From Acetobacter senegalensis (GTDB taxonomy: Bacteria; Pseudomonadota; Alphaproteobacteria; Acetobacterales; Acetobacteraceae), in the NCBI RefSeq assembly GCF_001580995.1, contig NZ_LHZU01000147.1:62001-126000 (forward strand): a stretch of DNA of 64,000 bases, in the 5' to 3' direction. Shown piece by piece: positions 10,353-37,071 of this stretch. Position 1 is the first letter of the stretch. Each line of letters begins with the position of its first letter. The notes below the pieces were generated by a model. That model was given only the letters and a program-made list of their open reading frames with translations, was not told the origin of the DNA and ran no database searches. The translations under genes and the position numbers were made by a program.

Positions 10353-12668
10353 TTAGTCAAACCCTACGGAAATTCCGGCGAAAATGCCGAATCCATCGCC
10401 CACCAGCAGAGCAGAAGGCTGTGTGGTGCCGCTTCCGTAAACAGGAACTACGCCGGTTGCGTAATGCTTGTTCGCAAGGTTGTGGAAGCTGAGATAAACC
10501 TGTCGATGCTTTTTGGGCCACTGGTATCCCATATTGAAGTTGTAAATATGGTAAGGGGCTGCCCGGTAGCGATTATCATAAGATGCCAGAACAGATGATG
10601 CGACTTCAGCATCAACGGCGGCATAAAACCCGTTTTTCAGGTCTAGATGCAGTTCTCCCTGATAGTAATGCTGGGGAATGCCAGGAATGTGGTTATGGCC
10701 CCATACCGGGTCATGATTGAAGCGGAAGTCCTGATAGGTATAGGCTTGTCGTAAAGAAATGACGTTTCCGGCCCATTGGTAAAGAGTGGAATGAAGTGCA
10801 AACTCCACGCCCTGATGCGTGGTGGGGGAGGCATTCCCATAGGTTGCGTTGTTATACAGCTGTGACGTGGGTGTCATGACCGAGAGTAATTCATTGCGCA
10901 CAGCCGAGTGGTAGTAGGACAAACTCCACTGTGTTCCGGCATATTCTCCGCTGGTACCGACTTCAAACGTGGTGGCAGTCTGGGGTTTCAGCATGCTCCA
11001 GTCTTTGGTTAAACCCGTTGCGATGCCACTGGTATAGAGATTACCGGAGAGATACTGCCAATCCTGTGCTGGTTGGACGCTGCGGCTGACATTTCCGTAA
11101 ACCTGAATATGCGGGTTAATGACATATCGGAAACCGGCACGCGGAGAAAAATACAGAGCATCCTGACTAAAGCGGCTTTTTTCCGGATATGTCTGGCTAC
11201 CCGAACGGGGGGAATAATCCAGCGCGCCAGCGACCGTTAACCAGAAATTATGAAAAACTTCCGTATTGTTGCTGACATGAAATACATTGTCACTTCCGCC
11301 CAAATGGGAACGTGTGACCAGTGTGCCAATTGCAACACCCGGATAGGCATCGGCGCGTCGGACACGGTTGTCAATTGTGGCGTGCAAATCATGCGTTGTG
11401 TAAACCCCCACATCCGTATCGCTCTTTAGACCGAACAAGGTATCATGACGTTGGTAACTGAGAACGCCAGATGCGTAATCGATATCATAAAGAGAAGCTG
11501 TGTTGCCCAGTTCATGGTCCATGGGGGCGTTCATATAAACAAAGCCGAGCATAAGCTTTGAGTTGTCATCAATGCGTATGCTGACACGGTCTGCCGCGTA
11601 TTTTGTGCCAGGTTCAATCGTTTTTGTTCCCCAGTAACGGTAGGGTTCCTGTGCCTGCTTGGGGTTTTGTGCAACCTGGGCACGGGTCAGATAATAGGGG
11701 TTACCTTCAGACGTCTGGCGGTAGCGGAAGAAAAATCGGTTTTCAACACGGTCATTGAATTTATAGCCGTAATTGAAATTAACACCGAAGTTGGTGGATT
11801 TTGTGCTTTCCTGATATCCTGAGCGATAAGAATTGGTGACGCTGATATAATAATCATGTTTGCCAATCACCTTACCTGAACTGAGCTGCTCTTTGACGTA
11901 ACCAAAGCTGCCGGCTTCCACACGGGCTTGATAGGTTTGGGCATCATAGCCAGTATTGGTGACATAGTTGATCGCGCCGCCTAGCATAAGGGAGCCGTAA
12001 TCAAAACCATTTCCGCCGCGCAGGACTTCTGTATATTTTATGCCCAGCGGTTCCTGTAGTTCGTTCACGGTTCCAATAGGCGTGGTCAACGGCAAACCAT
12101 CGAACAGGAAGAGAATACCTGAACGTGTTGCATTCAGCCCTGTCTGGATGCCTGAACCACGGATGGAAATGCGCAGGTCATCTGATCCGCAAGGAGCCTG
12201 TGCGAAAACACCAGCTTGATACTTGAAGGAATCCGCATTTGTGGCGCTTCGCCCACGTAGCATGACGGATGCGTCAATAACACTGGTTCCGCCGGGAATA
12301 CGGGAGAGCCTGCGTTCAGCCTGCATAACGGCAGGTGTATGATGATGCGTTACGAGAATCTGTTCTGCTGTATGGCTGGTGTGCGTAGCAGAGTGCTCGT
12401 GGTGCATACCCTCCATATTGTCTGCTTCTGGAGCATGGGAGTGCGTATGAACATGAACCGCCTTTTTGTGTGCGGCTGAAATGGTGCGCGCAGTGCTGGG
12501 GGCAGCGTTATGCGTCACAGGAGGCGTGCTGGCCAGTGCTGCCGAGGCTGTCACCAGCGCTGAGGTTGTCAGCAGGAGCCCTGTTCTGAAAGGGGGCATC
12601 ATGAAAAAGGAACACACACGTGAAGCACGAACCGTAAGTGTAGAACGAGGTGCAGCGAGGTGATCCAT
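10353..12668 (-). CDS. TonB-dependent outer-membrane receptor with His-rich N terminus (paralogue 1)
   Basis: A 771-residue receptor: signal peptide (core about residues 23-46, ALAS), a mature N-terminal stretch unusually rich in His (about 65-115), a TonB-box-like EQILV, a plug domain (RIPGGTSVID to about 240) and a 22-strand barrel ending in FGIFAGISVGFD. Receptors of this type import scarce ligands using TonB energy. It is clearly paralogous to the receptor at 26943-29186. Divergent ssuCB suggests sulfonate uptake. The His tract and the yqjI/yqjH neighbours leave metal or siderophore uptake open. The start could also be one of the Met codons near 12600, which would give a shorter, more usual signal peptide. 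Confidence 0.92.
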   Translation of the reverse strand: MDHLAAPRSTLTVRASRVCSFFMMPPFRTGLLLTTSALVTASAALASTPPVTHNAAPSTARTISAAHKKAVHVHTHSHAPEADNMEGMHHEHSATHTSHTAEQILVTHHHTPAVMQAERRLSRIPGGTSVIDASVMLRGRSATNADSFKYQAGVFAQAPCGSDDLRISIRGSGIQTGLNATRSGILFLFDGLPLTTPIGTVNELQEPLGIKYTEVLRGGNGFDYGSLMLGGAINYVTNTGYDAQTYQARVEAGSFGYVKEQLSSGKVIGKHDYYISVTNSYRSGYQESTKSTNFGVNFNYGYKFNDRVENRFFFRYRQTSEGNPYYLTRAQVAQNPKQAQEPYRYWGTKTIEPGTKYAADRVSIRIDDNSKLMLGFVYMNAPMDHELGNTASLYDIDYASGVLSYQRHDTLFGLKSDTDVGVYTTHDLHATIDNRVRRADAYPGVAIGTLVTRSHLGGSDNVFHVSNNTEVFHNFWLTVAGALDYSPRSGSQTYPEKSRFSQDALYFSPRAGFRYVINPHIQVYGNVSRSVQPAQDWQYLSGNLYTSGIATGLTKDWSMLKPQTATTFEVGTSGEYAGTQWSLSYYHSAVRNELLSVMTPTSQLYNNATYGNASPTTHQGVEFALHSTLYQWAGNVISLRQAYTYQDFRFNHDPVWGHNHIPGIPQHYYQGELHLDLKNGFYAAVDAEVASSVLASYDNRYRAAPYHIYNFNMGYQWPKKHRQVYLSFHNLANKHYATGVVPVYGSGTTQPSALLVGDGFGIFAGISVGFD

Positions 12669-13086
12669 ATTTTTAATCCGTCAGGGTGAGATAATTATGC
12701 GACTAGAATGTGTGGAATATAATGCCAAAAATGAACGGTAAATATATAAACAACAAAATATAATGTGTGTTGCAAAATTAACACTACGAGAATGTGGAGA
12801 GGGGCTGCGTAGTGGAAGAGTTAAAAAGTTATATAAAACAATATGATAACATATTATTCTCGCCATTTTTGTGAAAGTGGCAGGGAGTGCGCGCACTCTC
12901 TCTCTTCGGCGGGATTGAGTAAGAGTTGTATGTTTCTTTATGAGAAGGGGACGAGACTTAAATTTCACGTTTTATTTTGTGTGTATTAAACAATCGCAAA
13001 AACAGGTTATATAGATAAATAACGAACTGCATGGAAACTTAGGGCGGCGTTAAGGAACGTGGGTGCAGAACAAGAAAGGCTGTTTG
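12669..13086. other. Divergent promoter region between TonB receptor 1 and ssuC
   Basis: About 420 bases, mostly AT-rich, with a GC-rich perfect palindrome at 12885-12898 and a TAAATAACGAA motif at 13016-13026 that recurs between ssuA and the acyl-CoA-dehydrogenase-like gene. A minus-strand ORF here looks random. No RNA gene was seen. Confidence 0.55.
12885..12898. promoter_or_regulatory. 14-bp perfect palindrome GAGTGCGCGCACTC
   Basis: A continuous self-complementary 14-mer in otherwise AT-rich DNA between divergent receptor and ssu genes. It could be an operator for a dimeric regulator. No known consensus is claimed. Confidence 0.3.
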
Positions 13087-13911
13087 ATGGCAGAAAGCTA
13101 TTCTGGGCACCGGTCAGCCCAGGAGTTACGGATACGGCAATTACGTTTTGTTGGGAGGGAAAGTCGTAGGTTTCTTTCGCCTCTTCTTCTTGTTGCTATT
13201 TGGCAGATAGCAAGCGTATCCGGGCTTGTTTCCGCGCGGATATTGCCGTCACCTGTTCAGCTTGCTCATACGGCATGGGGATTGATCAAGGATGGCTCCT
13301 TGCCTACCAATCTTCTTGTGTCTCTTGAACGGGCCAGCCTTGGCTTTGCTCTCGCCTTGGTGATCGGGGTGACATTAGCACTGATTTCTGGACTTTCCCG
13401 CTTGGGGGAGGACATAATTGATGCTCCCCTTCAGATACTCCGTACGCTTCCTGCTTTGGCTTTGGCACCCCTGTTCATCTTATGGTTTGGTATTGGAGAA
13501 GAGCCAAAAATTCTGTTGGTTTTACTGGGGGCGCTTTTTCCAATCTATCTCAATTTACATAAAGGCATTCGGAATATCGATCCCAAGCTTCTGGAAATGG
13601 CGCGCACGCTTGGTCTCTCCCGTGTTCAGACCATCATGGATGTGATCCTGCCTGGTGCTTTGCCAGACTTGCTGCTCGGGGTGCGCTATGCGTTGGGTGT
13701 TGCATGGCTGATGCTTGTTGTAGCGGAGCAGGTGAATGCAGAAAGTGGCATTGGCCACATGATGATGGATGCAGAAGATTTTTTACGAACAGATATTATT
13801 CTGGTCGGATTGATTGTTTACGGCTTGCTGGGATTGATTTCTGACCGACTAGTGAGGGCTGGGGAGCGCTGGCTGCTGGTATGGCAAATGCAGGGCGGTA
13901 CGCGCGTATGA
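13087..13911 (+). CDS. ssuC: Sulfonate-type ABC transporter permease SsuC
   Basis: A 274-residue inner-membrane permease of the SsuC/TauC/NrtB group with about six membrane segments. The cytoplasmic EAA loop is well conserved (LEMARTLGLSRVQTIMDVILPGALPDLL), as is the ILPSPVQ segment near the N terminus. It forms the channel for aliphatic sulfonate import with SsuB and SsuA. Its stop overlaps the ssuB start (ATGA), so translation is coupled. The ATG at 13087 has AAAGG upstream; a GTG at 13063 with AAGGA is an alternative that adds 8 residues. Confidence 0.9.
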   Translation: MAESYSGHRSAQELRIRQLRFVGRESRRFLSPLLLVAIWQIASVSGLVSARILPSPVQLAHTAWGLIKDGSLPTNLLVSLERASLGFALALVIGVTLALISGLSRLGEDIIDAPLQILRTLPALALAPLFILWFGIGEEPKILLVLLGALFPIYLNLHKGIRNIDPKLLEMARTLGLSRVQTIMDVILPGALPDLLLGVRYALGVAWLMLVVAEQVNAESGIGHMMMDAEDFLRTDIILVGLIVYGLLGLISDRLVRAGERWLLVWQMQGGTRV

Positions 13912-14660
13912 ACCATATCACCTCAAACGGAGAAGAGGGGCAGGGTCAGTTGGTTCGGGAAAGAGCAGATGTGCGTATTTCCGGTTTAACCAAGCGGTTT
14001 GGTGATGGCCCTGCCGTGCTGGATCATTTGTCTCTGAATATTCCGGCAGGAGAATTTGTTGCGTTGCTGGGCCGCAGTGGGTCTGGCAAGTCCACCTTAT
14101 TACGGACCTTGGCTGGGCTGGACCCGGTTGAGTATGGAGACGTGGCCCGGCCCACGGCTGTTTCCGTCGTATTTCAGGAAAGTCGTCTGCTGCCGTGGCG
14201 GCGTGTCTGGCAAAATGTGGTGTTGGGGCAAAAAGGGCCCGAAGCAAAAAAACGTGCCTTGCAGGTTTTGACAGAAGTAGGCCTGGCGCATCGGGTGGAC
14301 GCATGGCCGCTGACTCTTTCTGGGGGAGAGGCGCAGAGGGTGGCGTTGGCGCGTGCGCTTGTGCGTGACCCATCTTTCCTGATGTTGGATGAGCCCTTTG
14401 CCGCATTGGATGCGTTGACCCGAATTCAGATGCAGGCTCTTGTTCTGACATTGTGGAGGAAACACCAGTGCGCAACCTTGCTGGTGACGCATGACGTGGA
14501 TGAGGCTTTGGTGCTGGCAGATCGGGTTTTGGTGCTGGAACATGGGAAGATCAAAGTTGATCTACCCGTGCGCCTTTCACGCCCTCGTCGGCATGCTCAC
14601 CCTGTGTTTGAGGAGTTGCGAAGCGAGTTGCTGCAGGCGTTAGGCGTGCAGAACAGCTAA
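13908..14660 (+). CDS. ssuB: Sulfonate-type ABC transporter ATP-binding protein SsuB
   Basis: A 250-residue ATPase with Walker A (GRSGSGKS), Q-loop (VFQESRLLPWRRVWQN), signature (LSGGEAQRVALARAL), Walker B (FLMLDEPFAALD) and H-loop (LLVTHDVDEAL), all intact. The LLPWRRVWQNV pattern is typical of the SsuB/TauB/NrtD family. It powers SsuC. The ATG at 13908 overlaps the ssuC stop; an in-frame start at 13881 inside ssuC is less likely. Confidence 0.92.
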   Translation: MNHITSNGEEGQGQLVRERADVRISGLTKRFGDGPAVLDHLSLNIPAGEFVALLGRSGSGKSTLLRTLAGLDPVEYGDVARPTAVSVVFQESRLLPWRRVWQNVVLGQKGPEAKKRALQVLTEVGLAHRVDAWPLTLSGGEAQRVALARALVRDPSFLMLDEPFAALDALTRIQMQALVLTLWRKHQCATLLVTHDVDEALVLADRVLVLEHGKIKVDLPVRLSRPRRHAHPVFEELRSELLQALGVQNS

Positions 14661-14692
14661 GAATTTTTACTTTTGAAAGGCATAAAAACGAT

Positions 14693-15298
14693 ATGACCAA
14701 AGCGCCAGAACGTTCAGCCGACACTTCTGCCAGCCCATTTATTGTGGATCGCTGGTCTCCCCGTGCTTTCACGCCTACTCCCATATCTCAGGAAAATTTA
14801 CTGACGTTTCTGGAAGCTGGTCGTTGGGCACCGTCAGCTTATAACGGCCAGCCGTGGCGTTTCCTGTATGCCAGACGGGATACGCCGGACTGGGAGCGTT
14901 TCCTCTCCTGGCTTATTCCGTTTAATCAGGCATGGGCACAACATGCGTCGGCTCTGGTTTTCATCGCCTCTCATACCGTCACATTTTCCAGCAGCACCGG
15001 AGAGCCGGTTCCTGCACCTAGCCACGCGTTTGATGCCGGTGCCGCAGCGCTTCTGATTCAGTTGGAGGCATCTCATGCGGGGTGGGCAACACATCCAATC
15101 AGCGGATTTGATCATGCGTTGGCGCGCGCTGGGCTGGAACTGCCGGAAGATTATGCTTTGCATGCCGCAGTTGTTATTGGTCAGCAAGGTGATAAGAGCC
15201 ATCTGCCGGAAACCTTGCAGGGAAAGGAAACGCCCTCTGGCCGCCGGACTTTGTCGGAGCTGGCGTTCGAAGGACGTTTCCCGGTGCGTGAGGACTAA
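14693..15298 (+). CDS. Nitroreductase-family FMN oxidoreductase
   Basis: A 201-residue protein of the nitroreductase fold, with the N-terminal FMN-binding pattern RWSPRAFTPTPIS and APSAYNGQPWRF. Family members use NAD(P)H to reduce nitro compounds, quinones or free flavin. It starts 32 bases after ssuB, so it is probably cotranscribed with ssuCB. Inference: it may supply reduced flavin to the monooxygenases of this island. The substrate cannot be read from sequence. It converges on ssuA with a 4-base overlap of the two coding ends. Confidence 0.85.
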   Translation: MTKAPERSADTSASPFIVDRWSPRAFTPTPISQENLLTFLEAGRWAPSAYNGQPWRFLYARRDTPDWERFLSWLIPFNQAWAQHASALVFIASHTVTFSSSTGEPVPAPSHAFDAGAAALLIQLEASHAGWATHPISGFDHALARAGLELPEDYALHAAVVIGQQGDKSHLPETLQGKETPSGRRTLSELAFEGRFPVRED

Positions 15299-16284
15299 CC
15301 CTTCCAGATCATGTCCTGCACATGGAGGCTATGCGGTATAAGGGCTTTTTGGGTAAGCAGGTCGGCAGCTTTTTGCTGTTCGGCCTGAGTTTGGGCGTCC
15401 ATGAAATCGACGTCCAGAGAAAGGCGTGAGAGTGCCGTCTGGATAACGCTTGCCTCAAGCCCGGTGCTTGTTGCAAGCGTGTGCACCAGATCCTGTTGAT
15501 TTTGGGCAACCCATGCTTTCAGGCCCGAAAGGGTCGAGATGATGCGCCGCACAATATCAGGATTCTGTTCTGCAAAAGCGCGGGCTGAGAGCAGGAACTG
15601 CCGATTGGGAGAGAGATTTTCGGCATTTGTCAGCAGTCTGGCTGAAGGGAGCGCCTCACCTGCGGCAAGATAGGGGTCCCAGATGGCCCATGCATCAATT
15701 TGGCCCGTTTCAAAAGCAGCCCGTGCGGCGGCAGGTGTCAGATTAACAGGATGAATATCCGCAATTGTTAATCCAGCTTGAGTGAGGGCGTTCAGCAGCA
15801 GGTAATGGACATTTGAGCCCCTGTTGAAGGCGACTTTTTTGCCTTTAAGATCCTTCAGTGCTTTTATCTCTCCTTCTTTTTGGACCAATAGGCCTTCGCC
15901 CAAGGGGGCGGGGCCGCTGTGCCCGATATAGACCAATCTGTCTGGCCAGTTGGACTGAGCAAAGATGGGAGGGGCATCACCTGTTTCTGCAAGATCAATG
16001 GCGTTGGCAGCCAGAGCCTGCAACATTTGTGGCCCTGCAATAAACTCGGACCATTTGATAGTCCACCCTACAGAAGACAGGGCTTTTTCCAACAAACCTG
16101 ACTGTTTGAGAATAATAAGTGTCCCATACCGTTGATAGCCAATTCGGAGAGTTTTATCCGCACTTTGAGCCAAGCTGTGCTGGGGGACGAGAAGTGTGGC
16201 CCCTGCCGTAGCAGCAAGTGCCGCAGTGAGGAGCGATCGGCGGCGGAGTTTGGGTGCAAAGAGGGGAAGGGAGGGAGGCGCCAT
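15295..16284 (-). CDS. ssuA: Sulfonate ABC transporter substrate-binding protein SsuA
   Basis: A 329-residue periplasmic binding protein of the SsuA/NrtA/TauA group (NMT1-like fold). The N terminus has a twin-arginine-like signal (RRRSLLTAALAA) with probable cleavage near residues 39-41 (SLAQS). Motifs DKTLRIGYQRYGTL, GGPQMLQALAANAIDLAETGDAPPIFA-like and FNRGSNVHYLLL agree with sulfonate binders. It delivers ligand to SsuBC. Oddly it is not in the ssuCB operon but convergent with it. It is divergent from the oxygenase-like gene at 16474. Confidence 0.88.
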   Translation of the reverse strand: MAPPSLPLFAPKLRRRSLLTAALAATAGATLLVPQHSLAQSADKTLRIGYQRYGTLIILKQSGLLEKALSSVGWTIKWSEFIAGPQMLQALAANAIDLAETGDAPPIFAQSNWPDRLVYIGHSGPAPLGEGLLVQKEGEIKALKDLKGKKVAFNRGSNVHYLLLNALTQAGLTIADIHPVNLTPAAARAAFETGQIDAWAIWDPYLAAGEALPSARLLTNAENLSPNRQFLLSARAFAEQNPDIVRRIISTLSGLKAWVAQNQQDLVHTLATSTGLEASVIQTALSRLSLDVDFMDAQTQAEQQKAADLLTQKALIPHSLHVQDMIWKG

Positions 16285-16473: not shown

Positions 16474-17625
16474 ATGACGGCGCAGGATATAGACCAACAG
16501 ACTGCATGTGTTCAGAAAAAAGTATCTGAAATACTCCCTGATATGAAAATTAGAGCGCGAGAAGCAGACAGAACGGCTGTTTTCCCGTTTGAAACAATGC
16601 AGGCTCTTGCTCAAGCCGGGGCGCTTGATCTGGTATTGCCGCGTTCACAAGGTGGTGCAGAATGTGACCTGGCAACTGCTCAGGCTCTGATTGGTACCAT
16701 TGCGCAAGCTGATCCTGTTGCTGCTCTTGTTTTGGTAAACCATTATATGGTGCATGCGGAATTGCGCTCATTACCATCTTATCCTGTTCCGCTTCAGGAC
16801 AGAGAGGCAACAGCGGGTAAATTGATCAATGCGTTGCTGGCTGAGCCTGATCAGGGTTCAGCATCGCGGGGTGGACTGCCGGGAACAGTGGCGCAGAAAA
16901 CAGATCAGGGATGGAGCCTTACCGGCCGCAAAGCTTACGCAACGGGCATACCTGCTCTTTCCTGGTTGCTGGTACGGGCCAGAACGGATGGTCCTGAGCC
17001 GGAGATTGCTTTTTTTCTGATACCAAGAGAGGCTTCAGGCATAGCCGTTCTTTCGACATGGGATCATGTGGGTATGCGGGCTTCGGCCAGCCAGGAGGTA
17101 GTGCTGACAGATGTTGCCGTGCCGAATGATTATCTCATTTTTAAGGAAAAAGCCGGTCAAGCATCCAATTTTGGCAAAGTGCTGGGAATGTGGAATCAGG
17201 GGCTACTAGGGGCGCTTTATGATGGTGTTGTGCGGACGGCTGTTGGTTGGACCGAAAATTTCCTTAAAGCGCGCAAACCGTCCAATCTGGGTGCCGCTCT
17301 TGCAACGCTTCCCGCCATGCAGGACATGATCGGCGGTATACGGATTGCGCTGGATCTAAATCAGACCCTTTTACGGTCTTTTGCAGAGGCTGTGGCGCTC
17401 AGGGATAAGGAGCGTATTCAAAAAGAAGCAGTTCTGATCAAGATGCAGACAGTTGATGGCGCGGCAGGTTTGACGCAGTCCTTATTGGCTATTGCTGGCA
17501 ATGCAGGTCTTTCTGCACGTAATGATCTGGAGCGTTGTCATCGGGATGCCTTATGCGGGCGTATTCATGCCCCCCATGCCGAACTTTTGCGCAATAAAGC
17601 AGGACGGCAGGCGCTGGGTGTTTAA
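16474..17625 (+). CDS. Acyl-CoA dehydrogenase-fold oxidoreductase, SfnB/DszC-like
   Basis: A 383-residue flavoprotein of the acyl-CoA dehydrogenase fold. The N-terminal helical domain (to about 110), the middle beta domain (ATGIPALSWLLVRARTDG, EVVLTDVAVP) and the C-terminal helices are present. The C terminus (RCHRDALCGRIHAPHAELLRN, split here at about residue 365) lacks the IYEG catalytic Glu of true acyl-CoA dehydrogenases. That fits the SfnB/DszC subgroup, which uses reduced flavin and oxygen on sulfur compounds. It is divergent from ssuA. The ribosome site is weak. Confidence 0.8.
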   Translation: MTAQDIDQQTACVQKKVSEILPDMKIRAREADRTAVFPFETMQALAQAGALDLVLPRSQGGAECDLATAQALIGTIAQADPVAALVLVNHYMVHAELRSLPSYPVPLQDREATAGKLINALLAEPDQGSASRGGLPGTVAQKTDQGWSLTGRKAYATGIPALSWLLVRARTDGPEPEIAFFLIPREASGIAVLSTWDHVGMRASASQEVVLTDVAVPNDYLIFKEKAGQASNFGKVLGMWNQGLLGALYDGVVRTAVGWTENFLKARKPSNLGAALATLPAMQDMIGGIRIALDLNQTLLRSFAEAVALRDKERIQKEAVLIKMQTVDGAAGLTQSLLAIAGNAGLSARNDLERCHRDALCGRIHAPHAELLRNKAGRQALGV

Positions 17626-17675: not shown

Positions 17676-19319
17676 TTAGGAGGGGAGGCTGCTGGTTGCA
17701 TCTCCTATAAGGTGGGCAGCGGCAACCAGTTCCTGCGTAAAGGGATGGCGCGGATGCGTTAGGACGTCCTGAGCGGTACCGCTTTCAATAATTCGTCCAT
17801 GCTGCATGACAATGAGATCATCCGCGATATTTCTTACCACGTTTAGATCGTGAGAAATGAATAGGTAAGAAAGACGCAGGCGTTTTTGAAGATCATCCAG
17901 TAGGTCGAGAATTTGTGCTTGCACGGAAACATCAAGTGCGGAGACAGGTTCATCACAGAGAATGACAGACGGTTCCACTGCCAAAGTCCGCGCTATGGCG
18001 ACACGTTGCCTTTGCCCGCCCGAAAGAAGCAGGGGGTTTTTGCTCAGGAGAGTATCCGGCAAGCGGACCTGATCCAAAAGCGCACGAATACGTGTCATCC
18101 TTTCCTGTTTTGGAACATGAATGACAGAAAGAGCATCATCCAGAATAGTCTGTACTGTCCAACGGGGATCAAACGAACTGAGCGGGTCCTGATAGATAGC
18201 GGCCAATCTGGGCCTTCTGCCACGGCGAGCGGACTCGGGAACGCCGGCCTTTTCTGATCGTGACCAAGGTTCTCCCAAAAAATCTATGAATCCTGTTTCG
18301 GGTTTCTGAAACCCCATGATCATGCGGGCTGTAGACGTTTTGCCGGAACCGGATTCTCCAATTAACGCTAATGTGCGACCGGGAAAAAGGGACAGGCTGA
18401 TATCCTGCACAATGTGTTTTCTGGTGCCATCCTGCTGTTTGATAGAGAACGATAAATTGTGCGCTTCCAGCAACGGCAACGCTGTTTGGCGGGCAAGTGC
18501 GGGGGGGCGAGGCGGTCTTCTTCCGGGTTCGGCATCAAGCAGCCTGCGGGTATAGGAATGTCGGGGAGCGGAAAGAAGGTCCGCCGTGCGGCCTTCTTCA
18601 ATCATATGCCCATGATGCATGACAATAACGCGATCTGCCAGGCGAGAGACAAAACCAAGGTCATGACTAATGATCAGAATACCATGTCCCGCTGCACGGA
18701 GCTGTTTCAGCAGTTCCAGAATTTGCACCTGAACGGACGGATCAAGGGCTGTTGTTGGTTCATCCGCAATCAAAAAGGGTGGGTTCATGGCCAGTGCGCT
18801 GGCAATCAGCGCACGTTGACGCAGGCCGCCCGAAAGCTGGTCCGCCCGAAGGTGAACGCGCTCTTTTGCTAAAGGAATGCCAGCCTGCGTTAGCAACTGT
18901 AACACACGGTCTTCTCGTGTGTTTTTGGTGCCCCATTTATGGGCTGTCAGGGCTTCAGTAATCTCTGTCCCGATTGAGCGTAGCGGGTCGAGTGCGACCA
19001 ATGCATCCTGCAGGATAAAGCCGATTTCCGCACCGCGTATCTTGCGCCATTGCTGTTCTGTGTTGGCTAGAAGCGACCGCCCGTTAAGAGACAGATGGTC
19101 CGCTGTAATCTGGGCATGTGGACCCGAAAGACCAAGTAATGCGCGCGCGGTAACGGTTTTGCCTGAGCCAGACTCTCCAACAAGTGCGACAACTTCTCCC
19201 GGTGTGAGGGAAAAGGAGAGGGAATGCACGGCTATATGGGAAACCCCACCCGAACTGAATGTCACGGACAGATTTTTTACACTCAGGCCAGACTGAGATG
19301 TGTCAGAAAACGCGTTCAT
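17676..19319 (-). CDS. Peptide-type ABC transporter, fused dual ATPase (DppD-DppF type)
   Basis: A 547-residue protein with two complete ATPase halves. The first has Walker A GESGSGKT near residue 50 and signature LSGGLRQR. The second has Walker A GESGSGKT near 325, signature LSGGQRQRVAIARTL and Walker B ILCDEPVSALD. This is the fused layout of GsiA/YejF-type importers for peptides, glutathione or related solutes. It is the last gene of a four-gene transporter operon, its start overlapping the permease stop (ATGA). Its association with SfnB-like genes suggests import of an organosulfur ligand, which is inference. Confidence 0.92.
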   Translation of the reverse strand: MNAFSDTSQSGLSVKNLSVTFSSGGVSHIAVHSLSFSLTPGEVVALVGESGSGKTVTARALLGLSGPHAQITADHLSLNGRSLLANTEQQWRKIRGAEIGFILQDALVALDPLRSIGTEITEALTAHKWGTKNTREDRVLQLLTQAGIPLAKERVHLRADQLSGGLRQRALIASALAMNPPFLIADEPTTALDPSVQVQILELLKQLRAAGHGILIISHDLGFVSRLADRVIVMHHGHMIEEGRTADLLSAPRHSYTRRLLDAEPGRRPPRPPALARQTALPLLEAHNLSFSIKQQDGTRKHIVQDISLSLFPGRTLALIGESGSGKTSTARMIMGFQKPETGFIDFLGEPWSRSEKAGVPESARRGRRPRLAAIYQDPLSSFDPRWTVQTILDDALSVIHVPKQERMTRIRALLDQVRLPDTLLSKNPLLLSGGQRQRVAIARTLAVEPSVILCDEPVSALDVSVQAQILDLLDDLQKRLRLSYLFISHDLNVVRNIADDLIVMQHGRIIESGTAQDVLTHPRHPFTQELVAAAHLIGDATSSLPS

Positions 19320-20182
19320 GAGGAACTTGTTTCAAAGTGATTTTTCAGGAAGCGTCCCAATGTGGTTGTTGCCAACATGGTAAGAACAATAGCAACGCCA
19401 GGGAAAAACGTGATCCACCAGGCCTCGGCAATATAGTCGCGGCCCATAGCCAACATGGTGCCCCATTCTGCTGCAGGGGGTGGTGCGCCGAGCCCCAGAA
19501 AAGAGAGGGAAGACGCCCAGATAATGGTCTGCCCAACACCCATGGCGCCTGCAATCAGCAATGGACGAAACGCATTGGGAACTAAATGGCGCCGTAAAAT
19601 GTGTGCTGGCGAGTGGCCGAGTGAGCGGGCCGCTTCAATGAAGCCAGCATGACGGATTGTCAGAAACTGCCCGAACAGCATCCGCCCGTACCCCGGTGCA
19701 GCGCCAATGCCGACCGCTACAATCAGAGGAAAAGTGCCGGAAGAGAAAATGGCCGTTAACAGGAGAGCAAGAACAACGGTAGGGAATGAGAAAAGGATCT
19801 CAAAAATCCATTTAACACATTGTTCTGCCACGGCTCCACCAAATGCTCCGGGGATTGCGAGGCTTAAGGCAACGGAGAGAGCGAGCAGAATGGACCCTAT
19901 TCCAATAACCAGAGAACTGCGCGCCCCGAAGATAAGACGTGTCCACATATCGCGCCCGGATTGATCTGTGCCAAGTGGATGTTGCCAGCCGGGAGCCGTA
20001 AATGCTTCACGCGGTGCAATGCTATAAGGGTTGCCATGTGCGAGAAGATGCGGGGCAATGGCGGCAAGAATGAGAAGAGTCAGGTAGAGTAATGCCAGAG
20101 CCAGCCCGATATGCTTTCCTGCCGGCAACCGCAGGCGCGGATAGGCTTTTAAGGACAGCGGGAGAGAGTTGGTTGCGCTCAT
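19316..20182 (-). CDS. Peptide-type ABC transporter permease (DppC type)
   Basis: A 288-residue inner-membrane permease with an N-terminal OppC-N-like segment, the HPLGTDQSGRDMWTRLIFGAR signature near residue 70 and a conserved EAARSLGHSPAHILRRHLVPN loop. About six membrane segments are predicted by eye. It partners the DppB-type permease encoded immediately upstream (ATGA overlap) and the fused ATPase downstream. Substrate specificity resides mainly in the binding protein. Confidence 0.9.
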   Translation of the reverse strand: MSATNSLPLSLKAYPRLRLPAGKHIGLALALLYLTLLILAAIAPHLLAHGNPYSIAPREAFTAPGWQHPLGTDQSGRDMWTRLIFGARSSLVIGIGSILLALSVALSLAIPGAFGGAVAEQCVKWIFEILFSFPTVVLALLLTAIFSSGTFPLIVAVGIGAAPGYGRMLFGQFLTIRHAGFIEAARSLGHSPAHILRRHLVPNAFRPLLIAGAMGVGQTIIWASSLSFLGLGAPPPAAEWGTMLAMGRDYIAEAWWITFFPGVAIVLTMLATTTLGRFLKNHFETSSS

Positions 20183-24070: not shown

Positions 24071-24271
24071 GACGTGACTCGCTATATAACTCAAAAAATA
24101 TGAACAATAACCATACAATCATAGTCTATCGTGTTTATTTTATAGTCAACACAATTCCACTTAACGAAACGGAAAACAGTTGAGAATCTGGTAAAATAAG
24201 AGTGGGTTTATGATGAGTTCTGCACGGTGTGCGGTTGAAAGTCTTTACTTTCAACGGGTAAGATGACTGCG

Positions 24272-29321: not shown

Positions 29322-29855
29322 TTATTCAGGAATATGAGTGTGGGCATAGTTGCGCCGGAACCAGATCAGGCCGGGGTGGTGTGTATCGGAAGCGTTGACA
29401 TGGAGGATATGGGCGAAAACGACAGAGTGCGATCCTGACTCAACAACATGCGCAATACGGCAATCAAAATTGACGAGCGCATCTTGGAGAAGAGGAGCCC
29501 CTGTGGCGTATGAAGACCAGTCCGCATGAGCGAAGCGCGCCTCCTGTGATTTGGAGCGACTGCTGAAAATATTGGAAAGCGGGTGCTGCGCGTGGGTCAG
29601 AACATTAACGCCTAAAACGCCATTTTTCAGAATAGGATCATGCGCGCTGGTATTTTTATTGATGCAGACCAATAATGTCGGCGGGCTATCAGACACACTG
29701 CACACGGCTGATGCGGTAAATCCATACTGACCGGCGTTGCCATCAGTTGTCACAATGGTAACCGCACCTGGCAGCAGGGCCATGCCGTCCCGAAAAGATT
29801 GGGAGGAAGGGATGGATTGCGGCTGAAGTGCAGCAGGATCAATAAACTGGTTCAT
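29322..29855 (-). CDS. Flavin reductase family protein (FMN reductase)
   Basis: A 177-residue protein of the flavin reductase-like fold, with FRDGMALLPGAVTIVTTDG, GFTASAVCSVSDSPPTLLVCIN and the His-containing GSHSVVFAHI strand. Such enzymes reduce FMN or FAD with NAD(P)H and release it to partner monooxygenases (SsuE-, DszD- or HpaC-type function). It is at the end of an operon with two luciferase-like monooxygenases and is the obvious source of their reduced flavin. ATG at 29855 has GGA upstream; a TTG at 29873 is rejected. Confidence 0.88.
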   Translation of the reverse strand: MNQFIDPAALQPQSIPSSQSFRDGMALLPGAVTIVTTDGNAGQYGFTASAVCSVSDSPPTLLVCINKNTSAHDPILKNGVLGVNVLTHAQHPLSNIFSSRSKSQEARFAHADWSSYATGAPLLQDALVNFDCRIAHVVESGSHSVVFAHILHVNASDTHHPGLIWFRRNYAHTHIPE

Positions 29856-29886
29856 TTTAGGGTCCGTAAGCAAAAGAGCGGTGGCA

Positions 29887-31317
29887 TCAGGAGATCAGGG
29901 TGGCGTTTTCTGGCACGGGCATGGCAGTCTGCGCACGAATGGTGTTGGCAAGCCTTTCGGCGTACAAGGTGACTTCTGGCAGCCCCATCAGTTCGCCAAA
30001 GCGGCCACGTGCCAAGGGGCCCGCAACAAAAAGAGAAGGGTCCTTTTGGGGGCCGACCTGAGCGTTTCCTTCTGCAGAAACATGCAATCCCAGATCTGAG
30101 GGATCCATCTCAATATGTCCCTCAGCAGCAAGAGATTTCAGGAATGGCTGTGAGTGCAGAATATTGACGTGAGCGGGACCGGTTGTGGTGATTATGGCGT
30201 CCACAACCCGATCGTCCGTATGGCCGTTGCGGAGCCGTAAGGTGACCTTGAAGGTTTTTCCTTCTTTCTCGACCTTGATAACGCGGGCCGCCTTAATCTG
30301 AAGTATGCCCGCTTGAAGTGCCTTATTCACAATGTTTTCGGTTTGTGGAGAAATACGGAAGCGATGAGTATCCCAAAAAGGACGTAAGTGCCGAATGAGC
30401 CGACGCCGCTCCGTTTGATCAAGCGAACTCCAGATTTGAGGCCCCTGTTCGCGCACACGATCCAGAAAGGCCTGCCAGGGAGTGTCCGGGTTATCTGCAA
30501 TGATTTTACGTATGCGTTGCAGGACGTCTCTGGTTCGAGAGGCTGGAGGAGAGAGAAAATCTCCCGTTGCTGTAACAGGTGTCCGACTATGGCTTTTTGA
30601 TCTCTGGCCGCGGCGGGATATGGCGAGAATAGGTGCTCTGTGTCCCTGTGCCGCCAAGCTGGCCACAGTATCAGCCATGCTCAAGCCTGTGCCGATAATC
30701 AAAACCCTGTCGTCTGGTTTGACTGTGCTCAGCCCATCAGGTTTCCACGGATCATTGATCAGAACAGGACGCGTTTCAGCAGAAAGGAATGCCCCCAAAG
30801 CGGCAAATTGTCTGGGCAGTTGCGGTGCTGGGTGGCTGGTTGCGATAACGACAGTATCTGCTTCAAAAACGTCCCCGCCCTGAGTTTCCAGTATCCATTT
30901 GCCAGTTGATACTTTCCGCGCCGCAGTGACCAGACTAGGAATGTGTCGTAGGAGGTGAGCTTCCAGCAGGGGGGCCAGTCTGGCCGCTACGTACTGGCCG
31001 AAAACCTTACGGGCTGGATAGAGATTCCCATCAGGTTGCCGGGCCCCGTCGTCCTGATGGTTTGCCCCCGTTTCTTCCAGCCATTCAAGGAAGTCTAGAG
31101 GATGGGCCGTATCAATGCTCATGCGGCTGGCAGGAACATTGATACGGTGGTTGGGGTCTGTTGCGCTGTAAGCCACACCGCTGCCCAACACGGAGCGGGG
31201 TTCAAAAACCAGAACCGTCAGGGGGACACGGGGCCCCTTGAGCAGATGCCAGGCCAGCGCAGCGCCACTGAAGCCGCCGCCGATAATGGCTATGATATTA
31301 GGAGGCTGCGTACTCAT
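29887..31317 (-). CDS. FAD/NAD(P)-binding oxidoreductase
   Basis: A 476-residue flavoprotein with an N-terminal FAD-binding GGGFSGAALAWHL, a FAD-NAD(P)-binding family segment (VLGSGVAYSATDPNHRINVPASRMS) and a second dinucleotide motif, VLIIGTGLSMADTVASL, near residue 215. It resembles the group annotated as FAD/NAD(P)-binding protein or HcnB-like. Its reaction is not known. It lies 2 bases after ssuD and about 30 bases before the flavin reductase gene, so it belongs to the desulfonation operon and may oxidise or reduce a product or a substrate there. Confidence 0.8.
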   Translation of the reverse strand: MSTQPPNIIAIIGGGFSGAALAWHLLKGPRVPLTVLVFEPRSVLGSGVAYSATDPNHRINVPASRMSIDTAHPLDFLEWLEETGANHQDDGARQPDGNLYPARKVFGQYVAARLAPLLEAHLLRHIPSLVTAARKVSTGKWILETQGGDVFEADTVVIATSHPAPQLPRQFAALGAFLSAETRPVLINDPWKPDGLSTVKPDDRVLIIGTGLSMADTVASLAAQGHRAPILAISRRGQRSKSHSRTPVTATGDFLSPPASRTRDVLQRIRKIIADNPDTPWQAFLDRVREQGPQIWSSLDQTERRRLIRHLRPFWDTHRFRISPQTENIVNKALQAGILQIKAARVIKVEKEGKTFKVTLRLRNGHTDDRVVDAIITTTGPAHVNILHSQPFLKSLAAEGHIEMDPSDLGLHVSAEGNAQVGPQKDPSLFVAGPLARGRFGELMGLPEVTLYAERLANTIRAQTAMPVPENATLIS

Positions 31318-31319
31318 GG

Positions 31320-32486
31320 TCAGGCTGCGTGAGAACCGGGACGGTGATCACCAGCAATGGTTTCACCAAAAGGTCCCATGTTGTTCAGGTTGGACGTTGC
31401 CCGAATAGGGTGCGCTGTTGGCAGAAGCGGCAGGACCAGTTCTCCAAACTGATAGGCTTCTTCCAGATGCGGGTAACCGGAGAAGATAAAGGTGTCTATG
31501 CCAAGCCGACGATATTCATCAATGCGTTCGGCAACGGTGTCCGGGTCACCCACAAGAGCGGTGCCGGCCCCCCCACGCACAAGGCCGACCCCGGCCCACA
31601 GATTGGGGCTGATTTCAAGCTTGTCGCGTTTGCCGCCATGCAAAGCACTCATCCGGGCCTGCCCCACGGAATCCATCCGCGCAAAAACCTTTTGAGCTTT
31701 GGAGATTGTTTCGTCACTTAGGTGGCTGATAAGGCGGTCTGCTTCCTGCCATGCTTCACGCTCGGTTTCTCGAACAATGACGTGAAGGCGGATGCCAAAG
31801 GAGATATCGCGTCCCTGTTTTTCTGCGAGTTGGCGTACTTTGCTTATTTTTTCGGCGACTAACGCAGGCGGTTCACCCCATGTCAGATATTTATCAATGT
31901 GCTTGGCGGCGACATGTGCACCGGCCTCAGAGGAGCCGCCGAAATAGAGTGGGGGACCATTTTTCTGGAAAGACGGAAACAGAATGTGGCCATCATCTAT
32001 CTTGAAGTGTTTCCCAACGTAATTGACATGCTCTCCATGCAAAAGGGCTCGGTAGATATTGAGAAATTCATCTGTAATTTCATAGCGTGTAGCGTGGTCG
32101 GCAAAAAATCCGTCGCCCGCATTTTCTGCCGGGTCTCCCCCGGTGACAATGTTGATCAGCAGACGGCCTTCAGAGAAACGGTCCAGTGTTGCTGTCATCC
32201 GTGCGGCGAGAGTAGGGGAAAGCAGCCCGGGCCGGACCGCAATAAGATAGCGCAGCCGTTCCGTAATGGGCGCGAGGGCCGAGGCTACAACCCAACTATC
32301 TTCACAACTGCGGCCTGTTGGTATCAGTACTCCATAATATCCAAGGGTATCGGCCGCTTTTGCCACCTGCTGCAGGTAAGGAAGATCTACCGGACGCCCC
32401 CCTTTCTGGGTGCCAAGATAACGGCTGTCACCATGGGTAGGCAAAAACCATAGAACGTTGATTTTATCAGGAATAGAAAAAGACAT
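31320..32486 (-). CDS. ssuD: FMNH2-dependent alkanesulfonate monooxygenase SsuD
   Basis: A 388-residue luciferase-like monooxygenase. The N terminus ([18 protein letters not shown]), the [17 protein letters not shown] segment and [18 protein letters not shown] are close to SsuD of enteric bacteria and pseudomonads (about 380 residues). SsuD splits C2-C10 alkanesulfonates to an aldehyde and sulfite using reduced FMN and oxygen. It is packed between two other oxidoreductase genes with gaps of 1 and 2 bases. The cognate ssuABC genes are about 15 kb away at 13-16 kb rather than adjacent. Confidence 0.93.
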
Positions 32487-32487
32487 G

Positions 32488-33906
32488 TCAGGACGCCTTG
32501 GAAAAGGGCAAGGAAGAAAAGAGAGGGGCCGCTGGAGCCGTCAGGTTTTGCGGGTCCCGGTAGCGCGCGCCAAAATGGTATGCGGGCAGCCGTGTTCTTC
32601 CGGGTTCAAAAAGACGTTCGCGCAGGGTCTCGTTTGGCGTGTAAGCTGTACGGTAGCGACCACGCTGCTGAAGTTCAGGCACGACGAGGGAAATAAAATC
32701 CCTTGCAGTCTCAAAGGAGTGGTACTGCCGCAGATTGATGCCATCAATACCATCGACGTCCAGCCAGTTCTCGATCTGATCAGCGACAGTCGTGGGGGAG
32801 CCGACAACAAAGAAGCGTCCCTCATCAAACGACGCTATCTGTTTGAGTGCGCTACCAATGGTTTGATCCGGGCGGAAGCGACGGCCCATGTTCCCAAAGC
32901 TCTGACCCTCACGTAGCAGGACATCCCCTATGCGCTCGTTTACATCATAGCGCCGGAGGTCAATTTCAGCCTGAGCGTGAACAAGTGCGCCTTCTACGCT
33001 GTAGTAACGGCGATAGTGTTCCAGCTTTTTGGCGGCGAGGGCATCTGTTTCATCAACAATAATGCCAGCCATGACGATGAACCGAATATCGTCTGGCTTT
33101 CGACCATGAGCCACGGCCTGTTCGCGTGTTTTGGCAATGTTGCGGCGTACTTCCTCAGTCGTGCGGCCGCCAATAAACACAACCTCGGCGTGTCGGGCTG
33201 CAAATTCCAACCCTGCTGATGAGCCGGTTGCCTGAAACAGTAAAGGTGTCCGTTGCCGGGATGGTTCCACAAGGTGCGGCCCAGCAACCCGAAAATTAGG
33301 CCCTGTGTGGTTAATGGAACGGACTGCTGAAGGATTTGTATAAATGCCTGCTGCAGCGTCTTTCAGAACGGCGTTGTCATCCCAACTGCCTTCCCAGAGC
33401 TTATAGAGGACATCCATATATTCGTCCGCAATGGCATAACGTTCATCATGCGGGATCTCATCATCCAGACCGAAATTCTGCGCGGCACTCCTTAAGTAGG
33501 AGGTGACAATATTCCAGCCCACCCGCCCTTGTGTGAGCAGATCAAGCGTTCCCATGCGGCGTGCAAAGGCGAAAGGGGGCTCATAGGTGGTGGAAAATGT
33601 AACACCAAAACCGATATTCTTGGTGACAGCCGCCATGGCCGGGACAAGCAGGAGCGGATCAAGATTAGGAATTTGCACAGCCTCCCGCAGGGCGGCATCG
33701 TTGCTTTCTCCAAACCGGTCATAAGTGCCAATTACGTCAGCCAGAAAAACTGCGTCAAACAGACCGGCTTCGGCCAGTTTGGCCGTTTCAAGCCAATGCT
33801 CCATTTCACTATAGCGATGGCGGTTATTGCCCGGCGCACGCCACATGCCATGCACGATGTGGCTGACGCAGGCCATTTCAAACAGATTTACGTGCAGTTG
33901 TTTCAT
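32488..33906 (-). CDS. LLM-class flavin-dependent monooxygenase (NtaA/SnaA/DszA family), first gene of operon
   Basis: A 472-residue protein with the same family signatures as the product of 25545-26927 ([58 protein letters not shown]), but clearly a distinct paralogue. It should act with reduced FMN from the flavin reductase three genes downstream. The substrate is unknown; sulfone or sulfonate cleavage is the contextual guess. It heads the minus-strand operon whose promoter should lie within the long gap at 33907-34984. Confidence 0.9.
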
Positions 33907-34835: not shown

Positions 34836-34984
34836 GGTTTTGAGCGGCTTTGTTATCACTGTGTGAAATTTTTCATGTGTCAGAGATACAGCAGGTTGTT
34901 GCGCCATTGAGTTAAGAAAGGGCGTATCTGAGATCTCTCGCATGGAGTTGTATTTCTTCATGTTTTGAAAGTGCTGGTTTCTCC

Positions 34985-35734
34985 ATGCCAACATCAGCCT
35001 CCCCAGTTCTCACCAATATTTCGTTTTCTCCGTGGGAAATGTTTATGAATGCCGGGCCTGTTGTCCGGTGTGTGATGGTTCTTCTGGCGTTGGCATCCCT
35101 GCTGACGTGGACGGTCTTTTTTGCCATAACGGTTGAACTGGTGCGTGTGCGGCTGAAGCTGGGCCGGGCGGAGCGGGCGCTGGAGGAAGCGGGAACGCTG
35201 GATCTGGGAGAAGAGCACACGCGCGGTGCCGGGATTGCCCATGCGCTGGTGATGGCCGCGGAAACGGAGCGCGAACGCTCACAGGATATTCCCGATGACC
35301 GCGAGGGTTTGAAGGAGCGGATCGTGCTGCATCTTGAACGTCTGGAAGCGGCGGAAGGCCGCCGTCTGATGCGTGGCACGGGCCTGCTGGCCACCATCGG
35401 CGCAACATCACCCTTTATTGGTCTGTTTGGCACGGTGTGGGGGATCATGACCTCCTTTACCGGCATTGCCGCCAGTAAGGCGACCAGTCTGGCGGTGGTG
35501 GCGCCCGGCATTGCCGAAGCGCTTCTGGCCACGGCTCTGGGGTTGGTGGCGGCCATTCCGGCGGTGATCATCTACAACCATCTTGCACGTCAGTCCGCCG
35601 CGTGCCGGGCGCAGGTGGCGGATCTGACCTCGCTGGTCATGCGGCTGGTCTCGCGCGATCTGGGGCGGATGCAGGCGCAACTGGAAAGCGGGCAGGTGGT
35701 GCGCTTTGGTGTCAGCCGCATGGCCGGGGAGTGA
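34985..35734 (+). CDS. exbB: ExbB-type proton channel subunit (MotA/TolQ/ExbB family)
   Basis: A 249-residue inner-membrane protein with three membrane segments: one near residues 25-50 and two in the conserved C-terminal half (GTGLLATIGATSPFIGLFGTVWGIM and APGIAEALLATALGLVAAIPAVIIYN). ExbB and ExbD use the proton gradient to energise TonB. The start at 34985 is kept because SFSPWEMFMNAGPVVR matches the usual ExbB N terminus, although the ribosome site is weak. It is the first gene of exbB-exbD-tonB. Confidence 0.93.
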   Translation: MPTSASPVLTNISFSPWEMFMNAGPVVRCVMVLLALASLLTWTVFFAITVELVRVRLKLGRAERALEEAGTLDLGEEHTRGAGIAHALVMAAETERERSQDIPDDREGLKERIVLHLERLEAAEGRRLMRGTGLLATIGATSPFIGLFGTVWGIMTSFTGIAASKATSLAVVAPGIAEALLATALGLVAAIPAVIIYNHLARQSAACRAQVADLTSLVMRLVSRDLGRMQAQLESGQVVRFGVSRMAGE

Positions 35735-35740
35735 CGGGGC

Positions 35741-36214
35741 ATGATCCGCATCCGTCACACTGATGAAAACCCGCATGAGGCCAGTGAGATCAATGTCACG
35801 CCGTTCATTGATGTGATGCTGGTTCTGCTGGTGATCTTCATGGTCACGGCCCCGCTGACCACGGTGAACGTGCCGGTTGATCTGCCGTCCTCCACCGAAA
35901 AGCCCACACCCCGGCCGGATGATCCCGTGTTTCTGACTGTCAAGGCCGATCACGGTCTGGCGCTGGGCGAGGACGATATCGGTGCGGACGCGCTTGCCGG
36001 TGCGCTGGAGACGGCGACGAAAGGCAACAAGGACGAACGGATCTTCCTGCGGGCCGACAAAACGGTGGATTACGGCACACTGATGGGCGTGATGGACAAG
36101 CTGCGCTCTGCCGGATACCTCAAGGTGGCGCTGGTCAATCTGCAGGGGCAGGAAGAAGGGGCCGCACCGGCTGCTCCGTCCAACGCGCCCACCCCGGCAG
36201 GGGAGACGCCATGA
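35741..36214 (+). CDS. exbD: ExbD-type biopolymer transport protein
   Basis: A 157-residue protein with one N-terminal membrane helix (about 22-42) and a periplasmic domain. The conserved membrane aspartate of the proton path is present as Asp24 in INVTPFIDVMLVLLVIFMV. It starts 7 bases after exbB, and its stop overlaps the tonB start (ATGA). The C-terminal tail is extended by an Ala/Pro-rich stretch. Confidence 0.93.
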   Translation: MIRIRHTDENPHEASEINVTPFIDVMLVLLVIFMVTAPLTTVNVPVDLPSSTEKPTPRPDDPVFLTVKADHGLALGEDDIGADALAGALETATKGNKDERIFLRADKTVDYGTLMGVMDKLRSAGYLKVALVNLQGQEEGAAPAAPSNAPTPAGETP

Positions 36215-37071
36215 CCACGGCGGTTGCCGAGCAGGGCGAAAAAACCGTGCACCTGTCACAGTCTTTTGCCGAGTGGCAGAAAGCCCATACCCGCCATATC
36301 CGCCAGGAGGAAGCGCTTCGCTGGGGGATATCCTTTGTGGCGGTGCTGATGGTGACAGGCGGGGCGGTGGCATGGATCATGCGGCTGCCTCCGGTTGTGG
36401 TGCCCGTGCCGGAACCTCCACCTGCGGCCATTGCCCTTGATATGGCGCCGGAGCCAGTGTCCACACCGTCTCCTCCAACGGATGTGCCGCCCGGCCCGCA
36501 GCAGACCCTCTCGGAACCAGACCCGGCACCGGAGGAGCCGCCCAAGATATCGGCCCCGCCATCACCCGCAGCCAATCCACCAGTGCCGGTGCCCAAACCA
36601 GAAAAGCCGCGCAAAATTGTGAAGAAACACAAACCTGCGCCGCATCTGAAACAGCCGGTGCCAGATAAAACGCCACCAGCAGAGGAAGTAACAGCACCGC
36701 CCGCGACAGAAGCACCTCCGGCGGCTGCTCAGGCTACTTCTGCTTCAGGCCAGTCATCATCACATGCGTCTCAAAGCCCGGCAACGTGGCAAGGTGATTT
36801 GTTAGCTCGGCTGGAGAAGTACAAGCGGTATCCGTCGGAGGCTATGGCTGATCATCAGGAGGGCGTACCAATGCTGCGTTTCTCCATGGATCGTAAAGGT
36901 CATGTCTTGTCTGCTCACATTCAAGGCAGTTCCGGCCATGCTTTGCTGGATCAGGAAGCGATGGCGTTGGTGCGCCGTGCCGAGCCTCTTCCGGTTCCGC
37001 CAGATAGTGTTCAAGGAGACCCTATTACTCTCACCGTGCCGATTGAATTTTACATAGAAAAAGGGAAATGA
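36211..37071 (+). CDS. tonB: TonB energy-transducing protein
   Basis: A 286-residue protein with a cytoplasmic N terminus, one membrane helix (about residues 33-56), a long Pro/Ala/Glu/Lys-rich periplasmic spacer (60-190) and a C-terminal TonB domain (about 195-283) with the KYKRYPSEA motif and a final VPIEFYIEKG strand. It contacts TonB boxes of outer-membrane receptors. The nearest receptors are the two in this window, one of which (26943-29186) lies about 6 kb upstream of exbB, so the three genes may serve them, although TonB can be shared by all receptors of a cell. Confidence 0.93.
   Translation: MTTAVAEQGEKTVHLSQSFAEWQKAHTRHIRQEEALRWGISFVAVLMVTGGAVAWIMRLPPVVVPVPEPPPAAIALDMAPEPVSTPSPPTDVPPGPQQTLSEPDPAPEEPPKISAPPSPAANPPVPVPKPEKPRKIVKKHKPAPHLKQPVPDKTPPAEEVTAPPATEAPPAAAQATSASGQSSSHASQSPATWQGDLLARLEKYKRYPSEAMADHQEGVPMLRFSMDRKGHVLSAHIQGSSGHALLDQEAMALVRRAEPLPVPPDSVQGDPITLTVPIEFYIEKGK

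Follow-up and report, generated by a model that had tools for sequence, protein, structure and literature searches.

A 64,000-nucleotide stretch of the genome of Acetobacter senegalensis (contig NZ_LHZU01000147.1, positions 62,001 to 126,000; hereafter the window, whose own numbering is used for its genes) carries, between positions 10353 and 37071, genes for two TonB-dependent receptors in the midst of genes for the transport and oxidation of organic sulfur compounds. The original prediction for this region listed two paralogous TonB receptors, SsuABC, SsuD, two DszA-type and three SfnB/DszC-type oxygenases, a flavin reductase, a nitroreductase, a peptide-type importer, and an exbB-exbD-tonB operon, and proposed TonB-powered uptake of bulkier sulfur compounds. 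A scan of open reading frames (ORFs) with family models recovers each of these gene classes, although the SfnB and DszA labels have to be corrected and one flavoprotein gene within the same gene string, at 29887-31317, had been overlooked. The cluster probably serves organosulfur scavenging with an outer-membrane step of its own, in which the receptors would bring in small organosulfur anions, to be desulfurized by flavin-dependent enzymes.

The left part of the region starts with TonB-dependent receptor 1 (TBDR1; 10353..12668, minus strand), followed on the plus strand by genes for an SsuC-type permease (13063..13911), an SsuB-type ATPase (13881..14660), and a nitroreductase-family flavoprotein (14693..15298; PF00881), which occupies an equivalent position in the relative loci L052-L054. 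An SsuA-family sulfonate-binding protein (15295..16284) is then encoded on the minus strand, and a flavoprotein of the acyl-CoA dehydrogenase superfamily (16474..17625) on the plus strand. A second string of genes, all on the minus strand, runs from 33906 to 17676 and consists of dszA2 (32488..33906), ssuD (31320..32486), the gene for an FAD/NAD(P) flavoprotein (29887..31317), the gene for a flavin reductase of the RutF/HpaC type (29322..29873; PF01613), the gene for TonB-dependent receptor 2 (TBDR2; 26943..29186), dszA1 (25545..26927), sfnB2 (24272..25528), sfnB1 (22820..24118), and the genes for a Dpp-type importer. According to family models, the latter comprises a family-5 solute-binding protein (21132..22793; PF00496), a DppB/NikB-type permease (20179..21147), a DppC/NikC-type permease (19316..20182), and a fused DppD-DppF-type ATPase with two ABC domains (17676..19319). 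The binding protein is NikA/GsiB-like, with NikA as nearest solved relative (147.5 bits). A gap of 1,078 bases, in which the longest wholly contained ORF has 105 amino acyl residues, separates dszA2 from the exbB-exbD-tonB operon (34985..37071, plus strand). No tRNA gene that might mark an island border was found in the window, and the GC content of the region (0.49-0.56, compared with 0.46-0.58 for the window) gives no island signal.

The product of 31320-32486 exceeds the cut-off of the NCBIfam equivalog TIGR03565 (617.7 versus 518.2 bits), its nearest solved structures being 7jv3 (577 bits) and then 1nqk (533 bits); it is assigned as SsuD, with a predicted FMNH2-dependent desulfonation activity. 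The SsuA protein surpasses the subfamily cut-off of TIGR01728 (223.3 versus 163.5 bits) and stays below that of a second SsuA-type model (273 versus 299). SsuC and SsuB find their best matches among sulfonate models, but stay below cut-off, at 253.7 bits (cut-off 347) and 253.9 bits (cut-off 395). The two enzymes predicted to be of the DszA type are indeed related to each other (46% identity over 450 positions). Both are luciferase-like monooxygenases (LLMs) of the NtaA/DmoA subfamily (TIGR03860; 559.8 and 484.7 bits, cut-off 279.7), to which DmoA, LadA, and DszA belong as well. With DmoA (546 bits, for 25545-26927) and LadA (468 bits) as their nearest solved relatives and DszA reaching only 234 and 211 bits, a DszA identity is rejected for 25545-26927 and 32488-33906, which are better described as DmoA-like and LadA/DmoA-like FMN monooxygenases. 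YtnJ is also among the matches of 25545-26927, and nitrilotriacetate and EDTA monooxygenases match the pair at lower scores.

The three predicted SfnB/DszC-type oxygenases fare differently. The sfnB2 gene scores 546.8 bits against the SfnB equivalog TIGR04022 (cut-off 430.9), yet its frame holds one in-frame TAA (24950-24952). This position is open in all 15 relatives whose sfnB2 halves both align in one frame, and the stop reflects either a sequencing error or a recent pseudogene. For sfnB1, an SfnB/DszC/MsuC-type flavin oxygenase, the score of 261 bits lies below the same cut-off, with TdsC as nearest and methanesulfinate monooxygenase as third solved relative. The product of 16474-17625, only distantly SfnB-like (100 bits, cut-off 431) and scoring 117 bits against an acyl-CoA dehydrogenase model, is a relative of acyl-CoA dehydrogenases. 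Hence, none of the three genes in the region reaches the SfnB equivalog with an open frame. The overlooked flavoprotein (PF13454; model pLDDT 85.7) has the fold of N-hydroxylating monooxygenases, with FzmM, DesB, PvdA, and SidA as top Foldseek matches (TM about 0.6-0.7 by query).

TBDR1 and TBDR2 share 56% identity over 713 aligned positions, which confirms that they are paralogues, and both contain plug (PF07715) and barrel (PF00593) domains above cut-off. Their closest relatives occur in Acetobacter indonesiensis (94%) and A. tropicalis (92%). In profile comparison (E about 3e-44) as well as in fold, the solved structure closest to them is PqqU/YncD, FecA being next by fold; the TBDR2 model (pLDDT 81.1) matches the PqqU fold with a TM of 0.85 by target at about 21% identity. 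Substrate sites of PqqU/YncD and FecA are positively charged according to an excerpt of the YncD paper (PMC7193533), and the resemblance of the model to PqqU points to a small anionic ligand rather than the bulkier compounds originally proposed. Neither receptor appears to be a PqqU itself. They score 100.1 and 112.6 bits against the PqqU equivalog NF041535, whose cut-off is 1200, and depart from the residue signature Y99 (or F/W), R304, and R365 given in an excerpt of a PqqU study (PMC12124388). R409 aligns with R365, and 95% of the 41 alignment rows have R or K there; a counterpart of R304 is absent from the receptor alignment, and the Y99 region is aromatic in TBDR2 only, beside an alignment gap. 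Membership is rejected on this signature, as read from an alignment at about 21% identity.

Receptor loci were scanned with nine receptors, and the best 80 of 243 relatives divide into 55 acetic-acid-bacterium loci and 25 others, of which 24 belong to Pseudomonas and one to Pantoea. Neighbouring genes were called by tblastn of window proteins (E 1e-8) over up to 10 kb on each side of the receptor, some loci ending early at contig ends. LLM- or SfnB-type genes lie near the receptor in 48 of the 55 acetic-acid-bacterium loci versus 2 of the 25 Pseudomonas/Pantoea loci (44/55 versus 1/25 at an identity of at least 45%; LLM alone 39/55 versus 2/25, SfnB alone 43/55 versus 1/25), and the former number rises to 51/55, versus 2/25, if relatives of 16474-17625 are admitted. 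The same comparison gives 24/55 versus 3/25 for SsuABC-type genes, 17/55 versus 3/25 for Dpp-type genes, 19/55 versus 1/25 for the flavin reductase, and 31/55 versus 0/25 for the flavoprotein. Among the proteins of the sulfur unit, SsuD usually shows the highest identity across relatives. With only 2 of 25 Pseudomonas/Pantoea loci carrying such oxygenases, the link seems to be a property of this receptor branch and not of the receptor family. Neighbourhoods in Pseudomonas and Pantoea were dropped as a clue to the substrate, as 10 proteins from four loci were mixed and uninformative. Within the bacterial family, the receptor is present in 8 of 150 genomes, that of A. senegalensis included, and oxygenase or importer genes lie nearby in all seven others, the oxygenase match in one of them (G135) amounting to 34% only; several of these seven are the same strains as loci named here.

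Receptor and sulfur genes also occur together across 49 genomes of the genus Acetobacter, the receptor being found in 10, a dszA2 orthologue (at least 65% identity) in 8, and an ssuD orthologue (at least 73% identity, one of them with an in-frame TGA) in 10; for dszA2, matches of 44-48% were excluded, with which the tally would be 16. Seven genomes possess both receptor and dszA2, three the receptor only, one dszA2 only, and 38 neither (p = 1e-5), and the corresponding numbers for ssuD are 7, 3, 3, and 36 (p = 1.4e-4), these Fisher values ignoring shared ancestry.

The genome of A. senegalensis (3.93 Mb in 148 contigs) encodes 64 PF00593 receptors, so that one receptor beside any cluster means little by itself. 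All nine LLM genes found in it (10 HMM hits) lie within 10.3 kb of such a receptor, six of them within 5 kb. The chance of a random gene to lie within 10.4 kb of a receptor is about 0.33 by a rough Poisson estimate; the nine genes, which fall into five clusters, cannot be counted as so many independent trials. Four further clusters (L107, L108, L109, L110, and L111) combine a receptor, only distantly like TBDR1 and TBDR2, with a binding protein or importer and an LLM monooxygenase. On contig C140, a receptor and an MFS transporter are encoded together with an SsuA-like protein and an SsuD-like enzyme that stays below cut-off (47%), with no ABC permease seen on its 7.8 kb. Contig C62 combines receptors with SsuABC-type genes, two LLM enzymes, enzymes of the SfnB type, and Dpp-type parts; at the start of C72, a receptor is accompanied by SsuBC/NMT1-type parts and two LLM enzymes. 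In the C76 layout, a string (L109:10121-17843) encodes a receptor, a family-3 binding protein, a permease, an ATPase, an NtaA/DmoA-type enzyme, and an MmgE/PrpD protein, and is reminiscent of the S-alkylcysteine salvage genes of Bacillus. Two other TonB receptors of this genome contain an in-frame TAA (C24:58378-59658 and C76:56564-57862).

Conserved neighbourhood, co-occurrence, and recurrence in the four further clusters thus link the receptors with organosulfur genes more strongly than the original prediction could. Since many relatives keep the receptor beside sulfur genes, the receptors probably import organic sulfur rather than iron. TBDR1 and TBDR2 would capture small anionic organosulfur compounds on the outside of the cell and pass them inwards with the help of any available TonB complex. 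In the periplasm, compounds may be handed over by SsuA to SsuBC and by the NikA-like binding protein to the Dpp-type importer. For the cytoplasmic steps, SsuD, the DmoA/LadA-like monooxygenases, and the SfnB-type oxygenase would receive reduced flavin from the flavin reductase. These oxygenases are predicted to cleave C-S bonds, and the sulfite released might enter cysteine synthesis, the whole presumably being regulated by sulfur supply.

The two receptors probably differ in their ligands, as the Tyr-Phe pair in the plug loop of TBDR2 aligns with the region of the ligand-stacking Tyr99 of PqqU and TBDR1 lacks an aromatic pair. The plug loop reads [TV]NYF in all 32 TBDR2-type loci, whereas an aromatic residue is found there in none of the 23 TBDR1-type loci; since the loci had been sorted into types by similarity, the motif distinguishes two branches but does not count as separate evidence that the ligands differ. 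A match to ssuD accompanies 27 of the 32 TBDR2-type loci versus 8 of the 23 TBDR1-type loci. In A. orientalis (L081, 8342-16471), the stretch from the flavoprotein to dszA1 gives no match to TBDR2 or the flavin reductase; upstream of dszA2, instead, lies a receptor that is 65% like TBDR1. This arrangement indicates that the receptor may be an exchangeable module of the sulfur unit. A wider proposal is put forward tentatively, its chances being perhaps a little short of even: a PqqU-like receptor branch might have been recruited across acetic acid bacteria for small anionic organosulfur compounds, its paralogues dividing between aromatic ligands (TBDR2, tied to SsuD) and non-aromatic ones (TBDR1, more often with SsuBC and acyl-CoA-dehydrogenase-type genes).

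Several observations weigh against organosulfur import by these receptors. Seven of the 55 acetic-acid-bacterium loci lack LLM or SfnB genes; four of them (L041 with 14.7 kb and L045, L062, and L076, which are stretches of 5.3-8.3 kb) have no match to any oxygenase, and L052, L053, and L074 carry only a relative of 16474-17625, together with SsuABC-type genes. Two of these, L052 and L053, represent TBDR1 copies on the contigs of L028 and L027, so that the loci are not all independent. Only 2 of the 25 Pseudomonas/Pantoea loci, where receptors are 40-44% identical and window queries may be less sensitive, have such oxygenases nearby. Three of the ten receptor-positive Acetobacter genomes, one of which is 68% complete, are without an ssuD orthologue at the threshold used, and three ssuD-positive genomes are without the receptor. 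Family models applied to the ORFs of the gene string revealed no regulator gene, and an Rfam scan of 8500-38000 gave no match at the gathering threshold. Finally, genes for a PadR regulator and a siderophore-interacting protein (SIP) lie beside TBDR1 at 8750-10233, the SIP gene at a distance of 119 bp. Neither SIP nor PadR is matched in any of the 55 acetic-acid-bacterium or 25 Pseudomonas/Pantoea loci, and a siderophore reading of this pair is weakened by their absence from the 55 relative loci.

The exbB-exbD-tonB operon had been predicted as a part of the island, and this portion of the original interpretation has to be given up. The operon is found near the receptor in 1 of 55 acetic-acid-bacterium and 0 of 25 Pseudomonas/Pantoea loci, some of which are shortened by contig ends, and no match lies near the receptor in the seven other receptor-positive genomes of the family (19-39 kb each). 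ExbB, present in 28 of 41 Acetobacter genomes, does not co-occur with the receptor (both 6, receptor only 2, ExbB only 22, neither 11; p = 1.0), and a copy of ExbB with 97% identity is encoded at a contig end elsewhere in the A. senegalensis genome (C62:92770-93444). In A. tropicalis (L028), the operon does lie near dszA2, but a Sel1 protein and a PKHD/YbiX-type oxygenase, members of a group that belongs to iron loci, are encoded in between, and in A. indonesiensis no such operon lies in the 5.3 kb upstream of dszA2. On these grounds a dedicated TonB system of the cluster is rejected and the operon, judged to be a neighbour outside the sulfur unit, is treated as general TonB machinery, which may still power TBDR1 and TBDR2 like any TonB complex of the cell.

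Thioethers or thio-conjugates might be the substrates instead of sulfonates, the Dpp-type importer and the DmoA/YtnJ-like enzymes salvaging S-alkylcysteine-like or peptide-linked sulfur. The dimethyl-sulfide monooxygenase as nearest solved relative of 25545-26927, with YtnJ among its matches, and Dpp-type importer matches in 17 of 55 relative loci are consistent with it. This explanation, which overlaps with organosulfur scavenging as proposed here and would leave SsuD/SsuABC as a parallel route, seems rather unlikely in view of ssuD in the same string and its usually top identity within the unit. We consider it distinctly unlikely that the receptors import metal chelates resembling metal-aminopolycarboxylates, which the NikA-like importer would internalise and NtaA-family monooxygenases with the flavin reductase would oxidise. 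The subfamily of the LLM enzymes and their lower-scoring matches to nitrilotriacetate/EDTA monooxygenases, the NikA-like binding protein, the flanking SIP and exbB-exbD-tonB genes, and FecA as the next fold after PqqU would fit such a role, but SsuD and SsuA exceed sulfonate cut-offs, DmoA and LadA score far above the nitrilotriacetate/EDTA enzymes, and the iron-type neighbours are not conserved. Ordinary clustering, with porin entry of the sulfur compounds and receptors serving unrelated substrates, would agree with the large number of receptors in the genome and with the Ssu system of E. coli, which functions without a dedicated receptor; it is improbable given that the linkage is conserved across genera and accompanied by co-occurrence. 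That the receptors take up PQQ or some other redox cofactor and stand near sulfur genes by accident is very improbable, as kinship to PqqU/YncD by sequence and fold and the retained R365 equivalent are outweighed by the lacking R304 counterpart, by a Y99 loop without an aromatic residue in 23 of 23 TBDR1-type receptors, and by the fact that acetic acid bacteria synthesise PQQ themselves.

Compared with SsuEADCB of E. coli and Pseudomonas, the region shares an SsuD above the equivalog cut-off, an SsuA above the subfamily cut-off, and SsuBC-type partners. It differs in that its genes are scattered among several strings and accompanied by outer-membrane receptors, and in that a RutF/HpaC-type flavin reductase is present with no SsuE among the ORFs scanned in the region, the remaining genome not having been searched for SsuE. 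From PqqU, the TonB-dependent PQQ importer, the receptors are set apart by their sulfur-gene context as well. TonB receptors have mostly been assigned to iron chelates, B12, carbohydrates, and PQQ. In Pseudomonas putida, SftP is reportedly a TonB receptor beside the sulfur-scavenging genes atsRBC of a sulfate-ester gene cluster, which resembles the present case in its described gene context. A table in a portion of another paper lists SftP within the siderophore/vitamin group (PMC3400609). Sphingomonad TonB transporters have been assigned to sulfonate from gene context, and some cluster with receptors responding to sulfanilic acid, as stated in an excerpt of PMC7142613; there, too, the receptor adjoins sulfonate genes and the same reasoning was applied, in another bacterial group and with a likeness to our case in gene context. 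In Novacetimonas hansenii, alkanesulfonate genes are mildly induced on glycerol, the relevant section naming no receptor (PMC12405394). Neither 'sulfonate' nor 'sulfate' appears in the main text of a 2024 review of TonB receptor substrates (PMC11658791). Among the matches listed in the literature searched, mostly outside subscription journals and covered as titles, starts of abstracts, or excerpts, no demonstration of a TonB receptor importing sulfonate was found, nor a receptor-sulfonate link in the portions covering the chromate response and sulfur starvation of Pseudomonas. The idea of pairing receptors with sulfur genes is known already, but this receptor branch seems to have had no assignment so far. 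If the proposal is true, organosulfur uptake gains an outer-membrane step, TonB substrates gain a chemically defined organosulfur class, some of the many unassigned receptors of the acetic acid bacterium studied here are explained, and one plug loop yields a simple, testable ligand prediction.

Elsewhere in the window, an ORF of 1746 amino acyl residues at 66-5306 combines endonuclease/phosphatase-like, Hint, and glycosyltransferase group 1 domains.

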